The translations under genes were made by a program, and so were the position numbers. The notes beneath the pieces are model-generated. The model made no database searches and was not told where the DNA came from. It worked only from the letters and a program-made list of their open reading frames with translations. Of a stretch of DNA of 64,000 bases, positions 20,076 to 60,820 are shown piece by piece. Location: contig NC_061068.1 of assembly GCF_021917145.1 (NCBI RefSeq), positions 1,834,884 to 1,898,883 of the forward strand, given 5' to 3'. Position 1 is the stretch's first letter. Each line of letters opens with the position of its first letter. Source of the DNA: Hypomesus transpacificus (taxonomy: Eukaryota > Chordata > Actinopteri > Osmeriformes > Osmeridae).

Positions 20076-23000
20076 ATGTTTAAGAATGACTATCAGGTGA
20101 GTGTAAATGTCGCCATTGATTTGATTGGTCAATCAAAACAAGATATCGTTATCCTGTTCAAATATAATAGTTAAACCCTTTGATATTATGCAATATCCAA
20201 GGGTGGAGCTGTGGTTGAGATCTTCAGTGCACATGGCAAAGATCCTGTGGCAAAATGGAAGCTCTATGGAGGGCAGTCAGCAATAAGGAAAGTGAGTATT
20301 CATTTTCATACAAGTCAAGTGTTAGAGTACTGTACACCTATGCTACATAAAACCCTATGTATTAATCAGGCATTCCGTTAGACACAATGTTAGACTATTC
20401 TTTGCATAGGTGCATTATATAGCCTAATACATGTTCTTATTTCTGTATAGGACTTTGACAAAGAGGTCAAAGGCTTTGTGTATATATTGGAGGGTAGCAG
20501 TCAAACAATTAAAATGCAGATGCCAAAGGATAGCAAAATGTCTCGTAAGTGAAAAAACTAAAATCACCTTTTTAAGCATCTGTACTAATATTCTGTGGTT
20601 GGTGCTAGATATTCAGAGTGCTGTTATTTCCTATTGATTTAGAAGTGATTCTATTTTCCATTAGCAATGGTGTTTAACAGATATTTCTCTTTTTACAGTT
20701 GGCCTTGTTCAGAGATTCTTGGTCCTTCAATTGAATGTTCCTCTATGTAAAGAATTTTCGACAGAGCTTGTGTAAGTAGGCTTTTTTTTTAGCAAGTTTT
20801 TGTTTCATGATAATACATTCAATTAGTGACTAATATCATGAAGGCCATTTTTGTCAGGAAGATCTGCCTAGATATAGTAATACAGATATTAGCTTACCTA
20901 CATATTTTCATAAACCCTTGGCAATAGTCCCCCCAATTTTCTTTTTTAACTTGGATCTTTTGAAAGACTAATTAAAAAAGACACAGACTGTGATAAAAAC
21001 ACAAAATTGTGATTGTGTTCTGATCACAACAAACTAACTTTTTAAGTTATTTTTTACAAGCAATCGCCACCATGTAATTATTTTAAAATGCTTGCTGAAG
21101 AAATTGCAGTTCATCATAGGCCCCATGGTCTACTCTGGTAATCAAGTAATCATTCAGAAGCTCCATGTTCGATCGAAAAACTGTTAGTTTTTCCCCTGTA
21201 GAGTCAGACGTTGGCATCCTGTTGGAAATATGTAACCCAGTCTGCGTTATTTGTTCTCTTGCTACATTCTTTTTGTATGTGACCTTCCTAAATACTATCC
21301 CTTGTATCACCTGTTCATACCTATTTAAAAGTTCAATGTTCTTTTCTTCTTCTTCTACTAAGTACTTAATGCTTTAATGACTAAATGACTCAATTTAAGG
21401 AGGTTCAAGAATGTTACCATTTGATCTCTTTGTGACTAACTCAACTCACAAAATCTCTCTTCCTTTTAATTTGTGAGAGTGGGTGCTGAAAGTAAAGTAG
21501 CACGTTAAGTGAGTTCTTTCCTTCATGACATGTTTAAAACAACCAGGGGATGGATGCATTGTGCTGTGTAGAGTCCAAACCTTACATTGAAAATGAGAAA
21601 CTGCTAACATTTTCTGTTCTCAATGTTTTTATTTATGTGTTTTCAGAATAACTGATTCGGGGTATCTTAAAAGAAGACTTTACTTTTCAACCGTTCATAA
21701 AGAGTTTTCTGCAACACCTTTGCATGCCAGGATACCTTTTGTTGGACTGAAACGTTGCATTGTGAGTGTGTGTATTACCTCAAAAAAATTGAACCTTTTT
21801 CACCTTCAATGTTAAATTAAATCCATGATTATTTAGTCACGTTACCACTTCAAACTAGTTTCTGCAACATTTTCCCCCTTTGGTGTTTAGTGGTGCAACA
21901 TGTGCATCGACCTGGTTTCATTCATCGCCGAGCTGTTTAAAGGAGCTGGCTACTTGAGCTTGGATGGCATCACTTTATCTGCCAGCTGTAAGCTCAGAAG
22001 AATCTTCACCATGAAGGAGGAGCCTACAGGGGCCTCAGTTGGAGGTAAGGCAGTCAGTCACAGCTCACGCCTAGTTATGGTCCCTGCCAAAACAGAGCTT
22101 AGACAGTTCACCTTATCTCTGGAGGAATAACCACCCACACAGTCTGATGTTTCTTGGTGACACTCATCTCATTACCAACTTATAATTAACTTATCTGCAC
22201 CCTCGAAAACACCTCAGACATTTTCATTTGAATTTGTCTTTTGAATCCTAACTGTGAAGTGTTTACTTTCCTGTGTGCTTTGAAGTGCAAGCCAAGATGA
22301 TTGAATTTGGGTATAAATGTGTGTGTGTAACTTTTCCCAGCAGTGGGGAAGGTTGTCTTACTTTTTTTTATCATTACCCAGAGAGCACTGGAATGGTAAT
22401 GTTAAGGACAGATGTGACCCAGCAAAGTGCAGCCACTGTCTCTGGTGAATTCACCTGTAGAATACTAGGGATTACCATCGTTTAAAAAAATTATATATAT
22501 ACATTAAGAAGCACGTGTGTAATTTGTGACCTGTTACCTGTCCCCTCACAGACTTGTTTCTCAGTGGGAGTGGTCCTAGAGATCTTATTCCTCGGAGCTG
22601 CCAGTTTCCGGCTGACGTACAACATGAGACTCAAGTCTTGAACATGGAGAAAATAAAACTGTCAGATGCAAGGGTAGCCCCTGTGAACTGTGAATATGGT
22701 AGGTGAGACAGCAAATAAAAGAAGAAACTTAGTTTTGTTATTCTTGTATCTTGCAACTGAGTGCATCTCCAGGAAGCATTACTGTTCTCACTATCATGTA
22801 CAGCAATAATTACTAGTTTCAAGCAAGGACAGGTGTTCTAGGAAATCAAGTATGATTTAGAAGTTTATGGAGAGATAAGTAAAATATCCTTGCACAATCA
22901 TTTAGTTTATATGTGATTACTCTTGTGCAGAAACAAGGGGGGAGAGCAGTTATGTCTACTCCAGCTTGTACAGCTTGAACTGAGTTTTAATCTGAGGTAG

Positions 23001-34454: not shown

Positions 34455-36484
34455 AAAAAAATCCTTACTTGTGGTAAAGGTTATCTTTACTTTCTGATGT
34501 GTGTTTAAATCATCAAAGGAGGACTTTTCTCTGTGTGGTGTGTGGCTGTAAAGTGAGAATCATCCTTGACCATGGAGGTTTTCCTCTGAGTGCTGGATAT
34601 TACACAGTGGTGAAACACTAAAAATGGTACTTGTACTTCCCCAATGGGGAATATCTACCTCCCCTACCATTATTGAGAGGGAGAAATGTGTATTGGTACT
34701 TCACTGTCTTTTCTTCTGACAAACACACACACACACAAGCCCACAAGACCAAAAATCCAATTTGGTCATGGATGTCAACAGTCCTTGAGCAGTTTCGGCC
34801 CCATCTGTCAGATGTTGGGGTGGTGTATTGATCTACATTGGACTGTTCCAAGAGAAACCAGCCTGTAATATTCAATTAAATTGTACAAAAGAAAGTTCTG
34901 AAAGATTTTTCCCAAAACCCTGCAATTGTGTTTTACTTTATGTGTGATCCAGAAACAAAAGATCACAAATAACTCCAAGCTCAAGCTTCTGTGTAGAAGA
35001 AGAACAGTCATTACACAGCATAATATAGAGCCATCCACCTCCTACTTACAGCCAGGGGCAAGGTTGAGTCCCCTGCCCTGGACCACAGTGTACAATTGGA
35101 GATCACAGCTGGCCACAGTTTCCTACAGCTAAGCCTCTGTACTGTAGCCAGTAAGAACACAGGAGAGGATCTTAAGAGCAGGTGGTTGGGAGTTGCTCAC
35201 TTGGGGCTAGCAGAGAAGATGGGAGGCATTATGAAGACATCATGTCAAGATAATAATATGAGATATGTACAGGAAGTATTTTATGCTTATATTTGTTTTT
35301 GTAATGGCTGGCTTCTGATCTCTGTTTCCCAGAGAATGGATGGATGTCCTCAGTCCTCCCATTCTCTCATCCAGCCTGCTTAAGGGGTCAGGGGACACTT
35401 TGGACCATCACAAGGATCCTACCAGAGGTAATACAGACACCCTGAACCCAGTTCTCCAAAGATACCCCCAACCCCTCAATTACCTTAACAATGAAAACAA
35501 CACAGATTCACTTGCTGATATTTTCATGATGAAGGGGGAGAGGGAGACCGATCAAATGCTAGGGACATGGACAGAATACATACATTTTGATTTGTCCAGA
35601 AACCTCAGAGATAGCAGCTTTAGCCTGCATAGCGCTAATGGAAACGTTGACTGGGGTCAGAGGTTACACAGGCGGAAATGTTACGCTCCCGTAAAGATGG
35701 CACTGCGTGGAGAGGAGGGCTGTAAAACAGGCTCCAATTAAGGATAAAACCCCCATGGGACTGGAGCGCTCTGTCCTCGGCAGGGCTCTATAGGTCAGCT
35801 GAGATGTGCTTGTTACAAGGCTGGGCTCAGAAGACGAGCCTGCAAGGTTAATTGGTGAAACCTTTTCCATTTACAGCATAATTTTTAAACCTCTGACACA
35901 TTGTGTCTTATAATTAGTTTTCATTATCATCGTTGAGTTCTGATTAGATGACAATGTTCCTCCTGGAGCACTCTATAACCTTTTTAGTAGTTAACAGCCT
36001 GTCAGTTTAACAACTCAAATCGTGTGCTTTAAGCAAGAAGTGAAATTAGATTTTGAGAGGCTTCATGATGTGACTTTGGGTGTGAATGTCTTAAAAGTCC
36101 CTGTCTTGATTGATGAAGGAAGAGTGTTGGAGATGGTGGGAGAAAGGCTCCCATCGCTCTGGGGCAGAAGGTCACCCCACCCTCAAGTCTCCCTGGAGCC
36201 ATTTCCTTCTCCTAATAGTTCATCGGGGACAGAGCAGATTCAAACTTTTTCCTTTGGTGATTCTGTTGGTGATACTGCCATTGATTGTGTCTACATACTG
36301 TGCAGTATAGTTCATTTGGTGTGTATTTGTGTTAGTGAAGACCTTCATGTGTGTTACAGGGGCTGATGGCTCAGACAAGGAGAACAGGAAGGAGAATGAG
36401 GAGGAATATTTAAATCTGCTCTATGATCCCTGTCTAAATTGCTATTTTGATCCCCATACTGGAAAGTACTATGAGCTGGCCTGA
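20076..36484 (+). CDS. cfap20dc: CFAP20 domain-containing protein
   Basis: About 786 residues. Coding exons: 20076-20096, 20202-20291, 20451-20544, 20699-20771, 21647-21761, 21891-22044, 22552-22698, 23959-24089, 24678-24804, 25658-25783, 25903-26004 (probable), 27487-27803, 29679-30014, 31769-32014, 32967-33028, 35333-35427, 36360-36484. All splice phases join. Residues 1 to about 180 form the CFAP20-like domain, with the family blocks [43 protein letters not shown] and [13 protein letters not shown]20 is an inner-junction protein of axonemal doublets, so a ciliary role is inferred. A conserved HIAFGS..GPPPL block follows, then a long Ser/Pro/Arg-rich, weakly conserved middle. The C-terminal part is typical of human C3orf67: a Glu-rich segment before [12 protein letters not shown], then [11 protein letters not shown] and the end [20 protein letters not shown]. 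Exon 25903-26004 rests on an unremarkable acceptor. The donors after 30014 (GTTGTA) and 32014 (GTCCGT) are weak. The human protein is somewhat shorter. Confidence 0.9.
22699..23958 (+). other. cfap20dc intron, no further feature seen
   Basis: Intron between the coding exon ending GAATATG and the exon encoding the conserved HIAFGS block. AT-rich, with no repeat or second exon supportable. A longer open frame ending near 23,918 shows no splice boundaries or family motif. Confidence 0.5.
25366..25530. repeat. (GT)n(AT)n compound microsatellite and AT-rich tract
   Basis: About 12 GT units pass directly into about 15 AT units (25366-25419). A second TATATA stretch lies at 25507-25530. All of it is inside a cfap20dc intron. 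Open frames across it are repeat artefacts. Confidence 0.95.
27804..29678 (+). other. cfap20dc intron, no further feature seen
   Basis: About 1.9 kb of AT-rich intron between two well-supported exons. One short direct repeat (TATGTGAGTGTAGCAT, near 28,450-28,480) was noted. No exon or transposon could be supported. Confidence 0.5.
30513..30630 (+). mobile_element. hAT-type transposon end remnant
   Basis: CAGTGGTTCTCAAAC followed by a G-rich block and runs such as GGGGGGGTCC is the usual look of the terminal region of hAT-family relics in vertebrates. No transposase frame remains. It lies in a cfap20dc intron. Confidence 0.5.
34402..34453. repeat. (AT)n microsatellite
   Basis: An imperfect then perfect AT dinucleotide tract in the 2.3-kb cfap20dc intron between exons ending 33028 and starting 35333. 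The rest of that intron shows no other feature. Confidence 0.95.
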
Positions 36485-36499
36485 TTTAAACCATTTCAT

Positions 36500-36505
36500 A
36501 ATAAA
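36500..36505 (+). terminator. Polyadenylation signal of cfap20dc
   Basis: AATAAA lies 15 bases after the stop codon, implying a very short 3' untranslated region. A later site is possible, but the next gene starts within about 400 bases. Confidence 0.7.
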
Positions 36506-36876
36506 ACAGGTAAAAGTGATTGAAATTGTTTTATTTATATGCCTTTATCCCATACATTTTGTGTTTGTGGTTATGTATTCTTGTGATCTAAGACGTCTAT
36601 AAATTAGCTATGTATATAGGTTGTGAAGTATTTAGCTATCCTACAAACAAACCTTTTGTTTCAATGTACCCTCAAATCAATTGCTGTGTTAAAATGGAGA
36701 CATTCTAGTTTAAAATGTGAGTTCTTATAAATATAAGTATCAACAGACAAGGAAGTTTTCGTTGCTGATAAAATAATGCCTGACAAAAGTGCAATGAACA
36801 ATCGCAGAAGGATCGACTGAAGCTAAGACTCGGTTACAAATGTAATTTCACCCAATCAGAAAGGCCGTTCTTTTCC

Positions 36877-37705
36877 ATGCTGGCTTCTGTCACTACAGGT
36901 AAGTCAAACCAGGAAGTAAACAACGAGTACTCAAAAAAGGCCCAACTCCTCTTACTCGAGGTAGCAACATTTTGTGAGACATCCAAGTCATCATGCAAGA
37001 TTGACTTCAGCTATAAAACGATAAAATTGGATTCCAAAGTGCAGGCGGGTACTGTCAGGAAAATGTCAACCGAACAGGTGTTACACTCTAGCTAGTTGTG
37101 GCGTTTGATTGTAATGTCAAGGCAACTGTGCCAACAATACTTTTCGTTGAGCTTGTATTGGTCTATTAAGCGCCGAAACATGTTAACATGAAGAAATGTG
37201 AAAGTCTGCCTATGTAGCGTAGGCCCACTGTTAAGTGAAATGAACACTCACTGTATGATTTACCTTTCTAAAGCCAGGACAAAGACTTCATCCTGGGATC
37301 ATTGCATCTGTGATATTTGTTTCATTGGTTGCAATTATCGCTGCAGTATTGATTATCAGAAAGTACTGCTTTCCACGCAGGTAATCCAAATGAAATTAGT
37401 GACCTAAAATCTAATACATTTAGGACTGTATTTGTTTAATCTGTACTTCAGTTATGAATTGAGTAAGCTAATGTTATGTTCCCATGTGTTGTCAGTGAGG
37501 CATCATATAGATATTCAGTGCTGATGCGGATGGAAAATGAGGGGCCAGTCGGGACAGATGCTGATAAGGGGCTCCACACAGTGGGAGAAGAGTCAGATGA
37601 GGTGAGGGTTTACTACTACCGTACTTTCACATATGTCTCATTGTAATGCAATGTATTTTTGGAGGCTTATATCCATGTACCTTTCAACAGGACCTTTTGG
37701 AGTAA
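36877..37705 (+). CDS. Small single-pass membrane protein, unrecognised
   Basis: Four exons join in phase to give 81 residues: 36877-36898, 37278-37380, 37496-37601 and 37691-37705. The first donor is the perfect CAG|GTAAGT and the others are normal. The protein has a short N-terminus (MLASVTTGQRLHPG), one hydrophobic helix of about 22 residues (IIASVIFVSLVAIIAAVLII), a basic/Cys stop-transfer RKYCFPR, a Ser/Tyr segment EASYRYSVLMRMEN, and an acidic end EESDEDLLE. No signal peptide precedes the helix, so the positive-inside rule suggests a type III protein with the tail in the cytosol. DEDLLE resembles acidic dileucine (endosomal sorting) motifs. The gene sits 0.4 kb after cfap20dc and 1.8 kb before fam3d, same strand. 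I do not recognise the family, and no enzymatic role is suggested. The intron phases (1, 2, 0) and intact frame argue for a real gene; transcripts would prove it. Confidence 0.65.
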
Positions 37706-38486: not shown

Positions 38487-38492
38487 AATAAA
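38487..38492 (+). terminator. Candidate polyadenylation signal of the small membrane protein gene
   Basis: AATAAA about 0.8 kb after the stop codon is the first canonical signal downstream on the plus strand that I found. It would give a 3' untranslated region of about 800 bases containing the poly-G run. Confidence 0.4.
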
Positions 38493-38798: not shown

Positions 38799-38990
38799 CT
38801 TGTAGTTGGTGATCTTCCTGAGCTTCTGTCTGGAGACGGTTCAGGCAGATCACCAACTACAAGCCCAGAGCCCCCCACACCATTAATGACTCGCCTGACC
38901 AAACGCCCTGAACGAGTTCTACTTTCGATTTAAAAGACATTTGGACTATCCTGACCTATATCTACCCACCCTAGAGCCCCCCCCCCCCCT
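38799..38990 (+). mobile_element. LINE ORF2 fragment next to a 17-bp inverted repeat
   Basis: From about 38,835 the plus strand reads like the spacer between endonuclease and reverse transcriptase of fish LINEs (FRQITNYKPRAPHT, then a DSPDQT-like stretch and, after a frame break, an acidic/aromatic block), followed by a run of 13 C. The segment CTTGTAGTTGGTGATCT (38799-38815) is the exact reverse complement of AGATCACCAACTACAAG (38847-38863), so part of the element is duplicated in inverted orientation. It is non-functional and lies upstream of fam3d. Confidence 0.45.
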
Positions 38991-39456: not shown

Positions 39457-41714
39457 ATGAGATTGCGAGGTGAGATCACCATGTTTGATATAATAAACTT
39501 TTAGGATGTAATTAGTGTGTCTGTAATATGTGTCTCATGGTTTACAGATCTTGTATATGGTGTTGCTGTCATCTTCGTCACCCTCCTGGTATGGCGAATC
39601 TCTGTCAACTCTTCCCACATACATGAGAGAGCAAGGGACATTCAACACATTTTCAGTAAGCTTGAATTTTCAGTTATTATTGTTCAAGTTCAAGTATTTT
39701 ATTGTCAGATGCACAGGGTCAGACTGGGCACTGAAATTCTTAGGACAAGACAACGCAAAGCAACTTGGAATAACATGACATAAGTACTCGGAACAAGTTT
39801 ACACCTATAACAAGTTAACATATAATATAATAAACCTCCAAAATATAAAAAAGAACAAACAATAGAGTATACTAAACCTATAATACATATAATTTCCTAT
39901 ACTAACTTAGAGAAAAGTAGGGTACCATTACTGCAATATGGTTGATTGTGCAACCAGTAGCTAAAGTGACAGTGTGTAAAGTGACTAGTGTGAGTGTGTC
40001 GACAGTGTATCAATATCCATATCAGTGTTCATTCAGAAGCCTGATGGCCCTTGGGAAGAAACAGTTGTCTAGTCTGCGTGTGCGAGACCGAATGCTTCGG
40101 TATCGCCTGCCAGAAGGCAACAGGGTTAAAGGACGGAAGGATGGGTGGTAACAGTCTCAGTCTTGTCCTTGTCCTGCTTCACTGTTCGGCTGTAATTTCA
40201 TTGTGATTTTCATGTTCAGGTGTTCATAAGATAACCAAGGTCTCTACCAGTGAGTGTGCATATTTGTTATTTATGCATTGTTTATTTATATTCATGTGGA
40301 AAGGACAGTCATTTCATTTATTTTCCACTGTGTTATATATCAGCTACACCTGCAGCCTACCCGAAATGCAAGCTTTCCAAGGTCTGTCCCATCGACCATT
40401 TTGCATTTCACATCAAAAGTGGAGCAGCTGATGTTGTCGGGCCACAGATCTGTTTTGAGGGTAAAATGTGTGTGTCTTCATAATAATAAGGATACATTTA
40501 TCTGTATAATTAGGTATATAAGGTAAATAGTTGTGTTTGTATAATAGAATGTGACCCCTTTCTATATATATATGTACAATTACACCAAATATATCACTTG
40601 CCGATAAAGGTGGAACATTTGATGCTAATTTGTTGCTAATTATGTTTACTTTATCTTCCTGGTCTTTTCTTCATAGTGTGATGAGTGGCGTGATTAACAA
40701 TGTGGGACCTGGGCTTAACATAGTGGTGGTGAATGGTAAATATACATCATCTTATATGCATGCATATGTACTCACATACATACACAAACCTTCCCACTCA
40801 GCCTGTACGCACAGAACAAAGCACAATTGCTTGGTGAAAAACTGTCAAACATTTCACACAACAGGGGGGTATTCCAGAAAGCAGGTTATGCATTGTAACC
40901 AGGTAAGTTAACCCACCAGCTGATTCAGAATGTTACAGCAACCTACTGGCAATTTTGCTACAATGCTGGGTGTCAGCTGGGGAGTAAACTTACCTGGGTA
41001 TGTCACATAATCTGGTTTCTGGAATACCCCCCAGACTGAAAATTCAATGTCCAATTCAATTCATGTTATTTTACGTTAATCGATTTATCTAGGTGAGAAT
41101 GGGACTGTTGAGAAGGTTTCCTACCTTAATATGATCGTTGGAAGTAAGTAAAAGTAAAAAATAGCTATAACAATTCTTAGCAATTTAAATAGCTCTTATT
41201 TGTACATAATGCCTTTTTTTAAGAACCTGAAGATATCCTGGCATACTTGAAAGATATTAAGCCTGGAATGATTGTTTTGGTGGCGTCATTTGATGATATG
41301 ACAACAAAGTATGTAAAATTAAATAGAAACTTTCAATTTGTCACTATAACTTTTTATAACTTTACAGTACACAACTGGTCAATTCTCCTCTCTCCAGGTT
41401 GACAGACGAAATGAGGGAAATATTTGATGTACTTGGGAGCACCATGATCAAGTCTATTAAACACAGAGATAGCTGGGTCTTTGCTGGGGGTGCTGGAACA
41501 AATGAGAAAAGTCCATTTGAAAAGGTAGGCCCCCATGTTTTTATTTACCCACTATCTTCATGGAGTCTGTGAGTGTGTCTAATTACTGTCTATAACTGTA
41601 CAGCATGATTTGTCTCTCACTGGTCAGGTTGCTGTAAGTGATCTGAAGAGCAACGTATATGAGAGCTGGCCAGAGGTTGTTGAGATTGGAGGCTGCTTTC
41701 CCAGGAAGATCTGA
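39457..41714 (+). CDS. fam3d: FAM3 family secreted cytokine-like protein
   Basis: Eight exons give 217 residues: 39457-39469, 39548-39655, 40344-40467, 40677-40735, 41093-41143, 41224-41308, 41398-41524, 41628-41714. The start (MRLR) is followed by a hydrophobic signal/anchor (LVYGVAVIFVTLLVW), then the FAM3 GG-type lectin-like domain. The family blocks are KCKLSKVCP, FHIKSGAADVVGPQICFEGK, NNVGPGLNIVVVNG, MIVLVASFDD, HRDSWVFAGG and ESWPEVVEIGGCFP. The four Cys expected to form two disulphides are present. FAM3 proteins are secreted, four-helix-cytokine-like in name but globular beta-beta-alpha in fold, with metabolic roles; FAM3D is gut-enriched in mammals. Length matches the human protein (224). 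Position beside cfap20dc and fam107a, as in human 3p14, supports FAM3D over FAM3B or FAM3C. Exon 3 uses a GTGTGT donor, because the GTAAAA seven bases earlier would break the frame. The MRLR exon is small and less certain. Confidence 0.88.
39681..40150 (-). mobile_element. Dispersed fish repeat in fam3d intron
   Basis: This block begins (plus view) with TTCAAGTATTTTATTGTCAG, passes through GAAATTCTTAGGACAAGAC, and ends with CAGAAGCCTGATGGCCCTTG and CGGTATCGCCTGCCAGAAGG. The first part recurs at 46,076-46,270 in fam107a, so it is interspersed. Similar blocks are abundant in fish genomes, but I cannot name the family. Orientation is judged from the pyrimidine-rich tail and is uncertain. Open frames across it are not genes. 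Confidence 0.6.
40864..41032. mobile_element. Fold-back MITE, copy 1
   Basis: About 169 bp with end sequences GGGGGGTATTCCAGAAAGCAG and an imperfect inverse at the right. The inverted arms extend inward past the ends to the CAGCTG..CAGCTGG motifs, so nearly the whole element folds into one hairpin. It is non-coding and lies in the fam3d intron between the exons ending 40735 and starting 41093. It is more diverged than the copy at 45,402. Confidence 0.8.
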
Positions 41715-41891: not shown

Positions 41892-42796
41892 ATAATTTAT
41901 AAAGTAAATCATCAATCCTTGATTTATATCAATACATTATTTGTTATTGTTTATTAAGTTTAAGCATGTGTATGTGAAGATGGGGGGGACTTAGAGAGAT
42001 TTCGTCTGGAACAACGCTGCCTTGTGATTCTTTTGTAGCCAGATGATGATGAAGAATATCTTGATCGACCAAATGTATCTTTGGCCGATCAACCTGCCTT
42101 GGGCTGGTAACTGCGTTTGGTTAATGCTTCATAGCTTCTCCTCAGTGAACTTGATTGTACCAAAGATGGTTGTAAATCCCTGACTGCTTTTTTGGAGGAG
42201 CCTGGAGACCCTCTCTGCTCAGAGCTGTGATCTTCCCAACCTGCTGCTCCATCACCATCGATTAGTCTAATCTGCCTTGGGCCCCTCTTAAGCCCCTGCA
42301 AATGTGGGAACACTTGTTACACATGAACAGGTGGTCAAGAGGGCTCTTTTATGTTATTCCACTTATCTCCAACCTCTTTCTCTTCTTTTTTCTCCTCTCC
42401 CTCTCTTCATCTCTTATCCTCTCAAACTCTTATCCCCTTCACCCCAGTATAATTATCTCCTTTTCTTTTTTTCCCACCTCCTCTCCACTTCTCTCAACCA
42501 TCCACCTGTTGTTTTCACGCTTAGGGCTCTTTCATGCTGGGTTAGGGTTAGTCATGCTGTTGGCTGGAAACAAGAACAACTTTGGATTTGTTTCAGTTGT
42601 CTGTTGTTTTCAGGGTTAATGTGTGGAAGGCCCAGACAGAGGGCCCTGTAAGATCCTGATGTCCCACATTAGAGGAGTGTACTGTAGCACTGTCATTGGC
42701 TCTGGAGGGCTGCATTCCGTTATCTTTTCTCTCAACTGTGAGAGTTGTCAAACTTTTCTGCTCCTCTTACTCTGGTTACGGCTCTAAACTCCGCCT

Positions 42797-49979: not shown

Positions 49980-60820
<10,841 letters not shown>

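Follow-up and report, generated by a model that had tools for sequence, protein, structure and literature searches.

Between a cfap20dc-like and a FAM3D-like gene of the fish Hypomesus transpacificus lies a small gene of four very short exons, and the helix and tail of its 81-residue predicted product are almost certainly homologous to the transmembrane (TM) segment and cytosolic tail of sortilin (SORT1). The account we favour, with somewhat better than even confidence, is that an old partial sortilin duplicate is now a small coding gene for an N-out membrane protein that engages sorting adaptors; that the gene codes for protein at all we consider, from its sequence, a good deal safer and probable. 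The window, i.e., the whole stretch of DNA that was analysed, comprises 64,000 nucleotides (G000:C9:1834884-1898883; contig NC_061068.1) of a 437-Mb genome.

The small gene and its surroundings

The original prediction of four exons with consensus splice sites, intron phases 1, 2 and 0, and an intact frame of 81 residues was confirmed at every position. The joined exons amount to 246 nt, an ATG-started frame of 81 codons plus stop (MLASVTTGQRLHPGIIASVIFVSLVAIIAAVLIIRKYCFPRSEASYRYSVLMRMENEGPVGTDADKGLHTVGEESDEDLLE), and contain no internal stop, frameshift or broken splice site. The features of the gene and its neighbours, all on the forward strand, are as follows.

21888..22019, +, CFA20-domain exon of the upstream neighbour, a cfap20dc-like gene (PF05018, E 5.1e-5; G000:C9:1856771-1856902)
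36500..36505, +, AATAAA just after the predicted stop codon of the cfap20dc-like gene, of which it is the likely, putatively assigned end
36726..36733, +, putative TATA-box-like TATAAATA from a pattern scan, ~150 bp upstream of the small-gene start codon
36877..36898, +, coding part of exon 1, MLASVTT plus one base, ending in phase 1 with the frame intact; a clear sortilin counterpart was not seen
37278..37380, +, exon 2, TM helix and RKYCFPR, ending in phase 2; corresponds to the TM exon of sortilin
37496..37601, +, exon 3, cytosolic tail as far as SDE, including YSVL, entered in phase 2 and left in phase 0; corresponds to the tail exon of sortilin
37691..37705, +, exon 4, DLLE and stop (15 nt, stop included); counterpart of the last sortilin exon
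38487..38492, +, AATAAA from a pattern scan, candidate polyadenylation signal of the small gene
40364..41708, +, FAM3-family (FAM3D-like) exons of the downstream neighbour (best E 2e-11 in tblastn with human FAM3D)

Scored with weight matrices, the exon-1 donor (CAG/GTAAGT) falls in the top 0.08% of the 3,959 GT sites of the window and donors 2 and 3 in the top 2.1% and 0.3%, and the acceptors lie in the top 5-8% of its 4,546 AG sites. Two features count against the favoured account, the weak context of the start codon (TTTTCCATGC) and a short upstream ATG frame at 36776-36820. This frame reads MPDKSAMNNRRRID-stop, and its likeness to exon 17 of a sortilin gene on contig C18 is borderline only.

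Elsewhere, CFA20-domain matches also occur at G000:C13:8138856-8141356, possibly a second cfap20dc-like gene. An inverted repeat at 38799-38863 (23-nt arms, 96% complementary, 19 nt apart) sits in the stretch that separates the small gene from its FAM3-like neighbour, and an array of ~1 kb at 56514-57519 holds about 28 copies of a 33-bp unit, GAGGGAGAAGCAGAGGAGACAAGTCACTGCATT. Rfam gave no match to the window at gathering score, and no paper pairing fam3d with cfap20dc was found in the open-licence PMC literature.

As the exons are small and their chain was picked by eye, a chance assembly in non-coding sequence has to be weighed. When the window was cut into 64 tiles of two kb, counting both strands, two tiles contained some such chain, one of them with a helix, in a count in which one tile covers the small gene itself. 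Against chance, the 2-kb gap was shuffled by dinucleotides 400 times without giving any four-exon chain of 60-120 aa, and the real gap contains six, all with a helix, at thresholds that lie just below the gene's own weakest sites and were set after the gene was known. The shuffles thus bear out the earlier argument that the chain is more than chance, and the sortilin homology and shared exon junctions described below refute a chance origin, to which we assign a negligible probability.

Homology to the end of sortilin

What did not survive was the description of the protein as unrecognised, since it is a divergent copy of the sortilin TM segment and tail, with the same internal exon junctions. 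Its local BLOSUM62 score against the human TM segment and tail is 105, which none of 20,000 shuffles reached when head, helix and tail were kept apart (best 74), and the tail alone scores 61 (0 of 100,000 shuffles; best 54). The human sortilin end and the microprotein share the order helix, KY, RYSVL, SDEDLLE, in which KY belongs to a basic juxtamembrane stretch from which RYSVL is equally distant in both. The ectodomain of the human query matches PDB chain 9i0n across query residues 1-679, and landmarks of the human tail are in print, viz. CGGRFLVHRYSVLQQ and HDDSDEDLLE in PMC3660575, and Y792SVL795, F787LV789 and D823DSDEDLL830, with CK2 Ser825, in PMC6965034. For the helix and the middle of the tail, the query is backed by the agreement with this genome's own sortilin genes (see below). 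A reverse primer for human sortilin exon 20 (PMC10531797) encodes, by our own reading of it, DEDLLE-stop.

The same answer came from a spliced protein-to-DNA alignment made without the predicted exons, in which the 91 C-terminal residues of sortilin scored 90 against the gap, with the alignment terminating precisely on the final codon of exon 4, a score that none of 2,000 dinucleotide shuffles reached (best 66). Among 126 overlapping two-kb tiles (both strands), the two that cover the small gene scored 90 and 87, and the next were 61 and 59 (the latter at 40001). The tile scoring 61, at 41001, takes as its end an acidic stretch, PDDDEEYLD, at ~42040-42065, which was judged by eye to be chance. 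Lengthening the query upstream into the exon 17 region left the gap score at 90; when the whole of sortilin was aligned in the same way to 8.5 kb, the score was 160, an uncontrolled value that is given no weight. Against sortilin genes of this same genome, on contigs C9 and C18, the microprotein scores 73 and 88, where the maxima of 5,000 shuffles each were 59 and 63.

Six comparison proteins, either tails or small membrane proteins (PDZK1IP1, SMIM24, the SORL1 tail, GYPC, CRB3 and SMAGP, with 60 shuffled queries each), gave z of at most 1.5 in spliced alignments, compared with 10.3 for sortilin, and the SORL1 tail, glycophorin C, CRB3 and SMAGP were set aside as relatives on these values. The MAP17/PDZK1IP1-SMIM24 family had to be considered, as the microprotein matches Pfam PF15807 weakly (E 0.033); that match, at 14.7 bits, is half of the curated cut-off of 29.6, PDZK1IP1 and SMIM24 align no better than chance (z 1.1 and 0.5) and a PDZ-type end is absent. 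Given the contrast in z with sortilin, the weak match is not the answer, and membership of this family is extremely improbable.

On the opposing side, the Pfam profile search with the microprotein returned no sortilin match; to our knowledge, the sortilin models of Pfam do not cover the tail. A search of the genome with the microprotein likewise recovered its own exons only (2 of 2 candidates) and no sortilin, even at E <= 10, a PDB search gave one chance match (E 1.4), and NCBIfam nothing at E <= 1. In IMG/VR and GTDB contigs, none of 24 and none of 217 pattern stretches was confirmed as a relative, as expected of collections of viruses and prokaryotes.

Origin, age and constraint

Searching the genome with the sortilin TM segment and tail produced two sortilin genes, one on C9 (minus strand, ~1.733 Mb) and one on C18, assigned in this analysis as sort1a and sort1b, respectively, and both have VPS10 exons. 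The 154-kb contig C125 (G000:C125:48000-67999, about 1.7-9.6 kb) carries a third sortilin gene, more divergent than these two, for which VPS10 exons, TM segment and tail (RFSAL...DSDDDLIE) were likewise seen; the tblastn pieces of this gene are 31-72% identical to human sortilin, and its tail was not among the matches of the TM and tail search. Exon ends, read from genome sequence rather than transcripts, agree in all three genes. The TM exon stops in phase 2, inside the codon that precedes RY (on C125, RF) by four residues; the tail exon runs as far as SDE (on C125, SDD) and closes in phase 0; and the final coding exon, of 15 nt, encodes DLLE, DLLA or DLIE and a stop. On C9, that last exon reads DLLA-stop, not DLLE-stop. 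The small gene has both internal TM/tail junctions at the sortilin position and phase, as well as the 15-nt last exon.

Where the small gene departs from sortilin is in the intron preceding the TM exon, which has phase 1 instead of the phase 0 of all three sortilins, and exon 1 therefore looks newly recruited. Another reading is that the TM and tail exons are real and belong to a longer protein, the 22-nt first exon giving way to unseen upstream exons, e.g., one for a signal peptide, or to alternative splicing from cfap20dc. Use of an alternative acceptor that lies before 37274 would bring back phase 0, as in sortilin, with an exon of 107 nt, the very length of the TM exon of C125 sortilin, and the lack of a clear sortilin counterpart for exon 1 would also fit. 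Against a longer protein, the MLASVTT exon (donor score 8.62) is by far the best of the 28 listed candidates, i.e., open ATG-to-GT first exons in phase 0 or 1 within 36482-37217, none of the others having a donor score above 0 (the next is -0.15). The room is also limited, the upstream AATAAA being only ~0.4 kb from exon 1, and a sortilin ectodomain exon was not detected in the window. We regard a longer protein as quite improbable.

The search for an ectodomain was made at two levels. In tblastn of human sortilin against the window, the pieces other than the TM match (E 0.12) were scattered, not colinear and at E 0.6 or worse, and of the 30 matches to the VPS10 domain (PF15902) scored in the genome, none falls within the window; a hidden full sortilin gene was thereby ruled out there. 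Just upstream of the small gene, one of four queries for sortilin exon 17 gave a borderline match with stops, which 9 of 1,000 shuffles equalled, and for the other three queries 704, 282 and 276 shuffles of 1,000 were as good (502 of 1,000 at the DNA level).

On one 22.7-Mb contig, 138.6 kb separate the TM exon of C9 sortilin from the small gene, and the chance that a random locus in the 437-Mb genome would be equally close to one of the three sortilin genes is roughly 0.2%, and therefore the small gene is likely of local origin. The microprotein is identical to sort1a at 23 of 73 positions, to sort1b at 28 of 73, to human sortilin at 28 of 71 and to the C125 tail at 20 of 71, whereas sort1a, sort1b and human sortilin are 58-65% identical among themselves. 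A small unrooted tree of five tips and about 80 columns set human sortilin, sort1a and sort1b apart from the small gene and C125, both with long branches, at 81% ultrafast bootstrap. From the low identity and this grouping, the partial duplication is probably old, and the tree is too small to say more.

A silent relic has also to be considered, either an old partial duplicate of sortilin or what is left of a lost sortilin gene, in which the three final exons look intact by chance and make no protein. The missing ectodomain, the weak start context and the one borderline exon-17 match are what such a relic might leave behind, as is the long branch of the microprotein (1.07, compared with 0.15-0.31 for the human, C9 and C18 tips), although the tail of C125 sortilin has one of 1.17. 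The intactness of the frame and of every splice site argues the other way, as does the near-perfect donor on a first exon that has no clear sortilin counterpart. So do the codons: compared with those of sortilin, third positions are saturated (29% identical), and first and second positions are 51% and 58-63% identical. When the C18 tail was left to decay neutrally to the observed identity in 4,000 runs, 12.7% were free of stops, 2.4% kept YSVL, 0.1% kept DEDLLE and none kept the frame together with both signals, in a simulation that assumes a static ancestor and follows motifs chosen after the fact. The chance of escaping a frameshift was ~1e-4 at an assumed 0.1 indel per substitution. The codon-position pattern and the outcome of neutral decay thus make purifying selection the better reading of the sequence, which is not proof of translation, and we rate a silent relic as unlikely.

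Topology, sorting signals and a possible role

The single helix of the original prediction was recovered at residues 14-34 (mean Kyte-Doolittle 3.04), and its short N-terminus, predicted to be luminal, and basic stop-transfer RKYCFPR agree with net charges of +1 over residues 1-13 and +3 over residues 35-49. The N-terminus (MLASVTTGQRLHPG) runs directly into the helix, with neither a signal peptide nor a cleaved propeptide, and the positive charge is greater on the C-terminal side, so an N-out, C-in orientation is expected, i.e., type III insertion without a cleaved signal peptide. The Tyr-rich, acidic tail ending in DEDLLE is present as predicted, and what can now be added is that its YXXPhi signal, Y48SVL51, and its C-terminal acidic cluster-dileucine with a CK2-type serine, S75DEDLL80, are sortilin's own signals, as judged by motif presence.

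In sortilin, according to PMC6965034, YSVL and DDSDEDLL bind AP-1, AP-2 and GGAs, the second containing the CK2 serine, and FLV and RFLV are the retromer and PAK sites. RFLV aligns to SEAS in the microprotein, so both of the latter sites are absent from it. It differs further from sortilin in its own first exon, in a juxtamembrane Cys one residue nearer the membrane, in a tail about 6-8 residues shorter, and in having no signal peptide, propeptide, ten-bladed VPS10 propeller or 10CC module. As the propeller and 10CC module define the family, the microprotein is not a VPS10 receptor; it appears to be a tail-only sortilin paralog that should work like the tail of sortilin.

Three known systems resemble parts of such a protein. 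Sortilin is shed by ADAM10 (PMC12603737), and the C-terminal fragment, presumably a membrane stub with the full sorting tail and no ectodomain, would be alike, differing in that it comes from proteolysis of full sortilin and not from its own gene. NSG1 offers a precedent for helix-helix action, as this membrane protein uses its helix to act on sortilin (PMC12603737); it is likened here by mode of action only, with no sequence relation claimed. In PMC1891007, CD8 chimeras carrying DXXLL tails on that unrelated ectodomain raise the recruitment of GGAs to membranes, and these are artificial and overexpressed.

In the mechanism we propose, the small gene would descend from the three terminal exons of a sortilin gene, encoding the transmembrane segment, the tail and DLLE, and a different first exon would have replaced the 700-residue VPS10 ectodomain. 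Y48-SVL would recruit AP-1/AP-2 and S75-DEDLL, with its CK2-type serine, AP-1/GGA, and the microprotein would enter clathrin carriers at the trans-Golgi and plasma membrane. Since it has no cargo-binding domain and no FLV retromer site, it would most likely compete for adaptors or recruit them while carrying no cargo, or pair with the sortilin helix, and so tune sortilin sorting; these roles are favoured because the signals are kept and because of the CD8 chimera and NSG1 precedents. Adaptor competition in particular is put forward tentatively.

None of the titles listed from the open-licence PMC literature, which may lack work on how sortilin evolved in fish, concerns a tail-only sortilin gene. 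It is conceivable, if doubtful, that in fish, and perhaps across vertebrates, a dedicated gene of this kind is kept as a free-standing membrane sorting signal, one that would engage AP-1, AP-2 and GGA like a loaded receptor, with no cargo and no retromer site, so that the microprotein would set the capacity or direction of sortilin traffic. The small gene indicates that an old paralog of a well-studied receptor can hide in very short exons that are invisible to frame searches. With the sortilin anchor and tail and none of the large cargo-binding part, its product may plug into the sorting machinery cargo-less. If expressed, it would represent receptor sorting signals naturally split from their cargo-binding part as a gene of their own, and would make it possible to ask in a living animal whether adaptor capacity is controlled by receptor tails on their own, a question that PMC1891007 approached with artificial chimeras.
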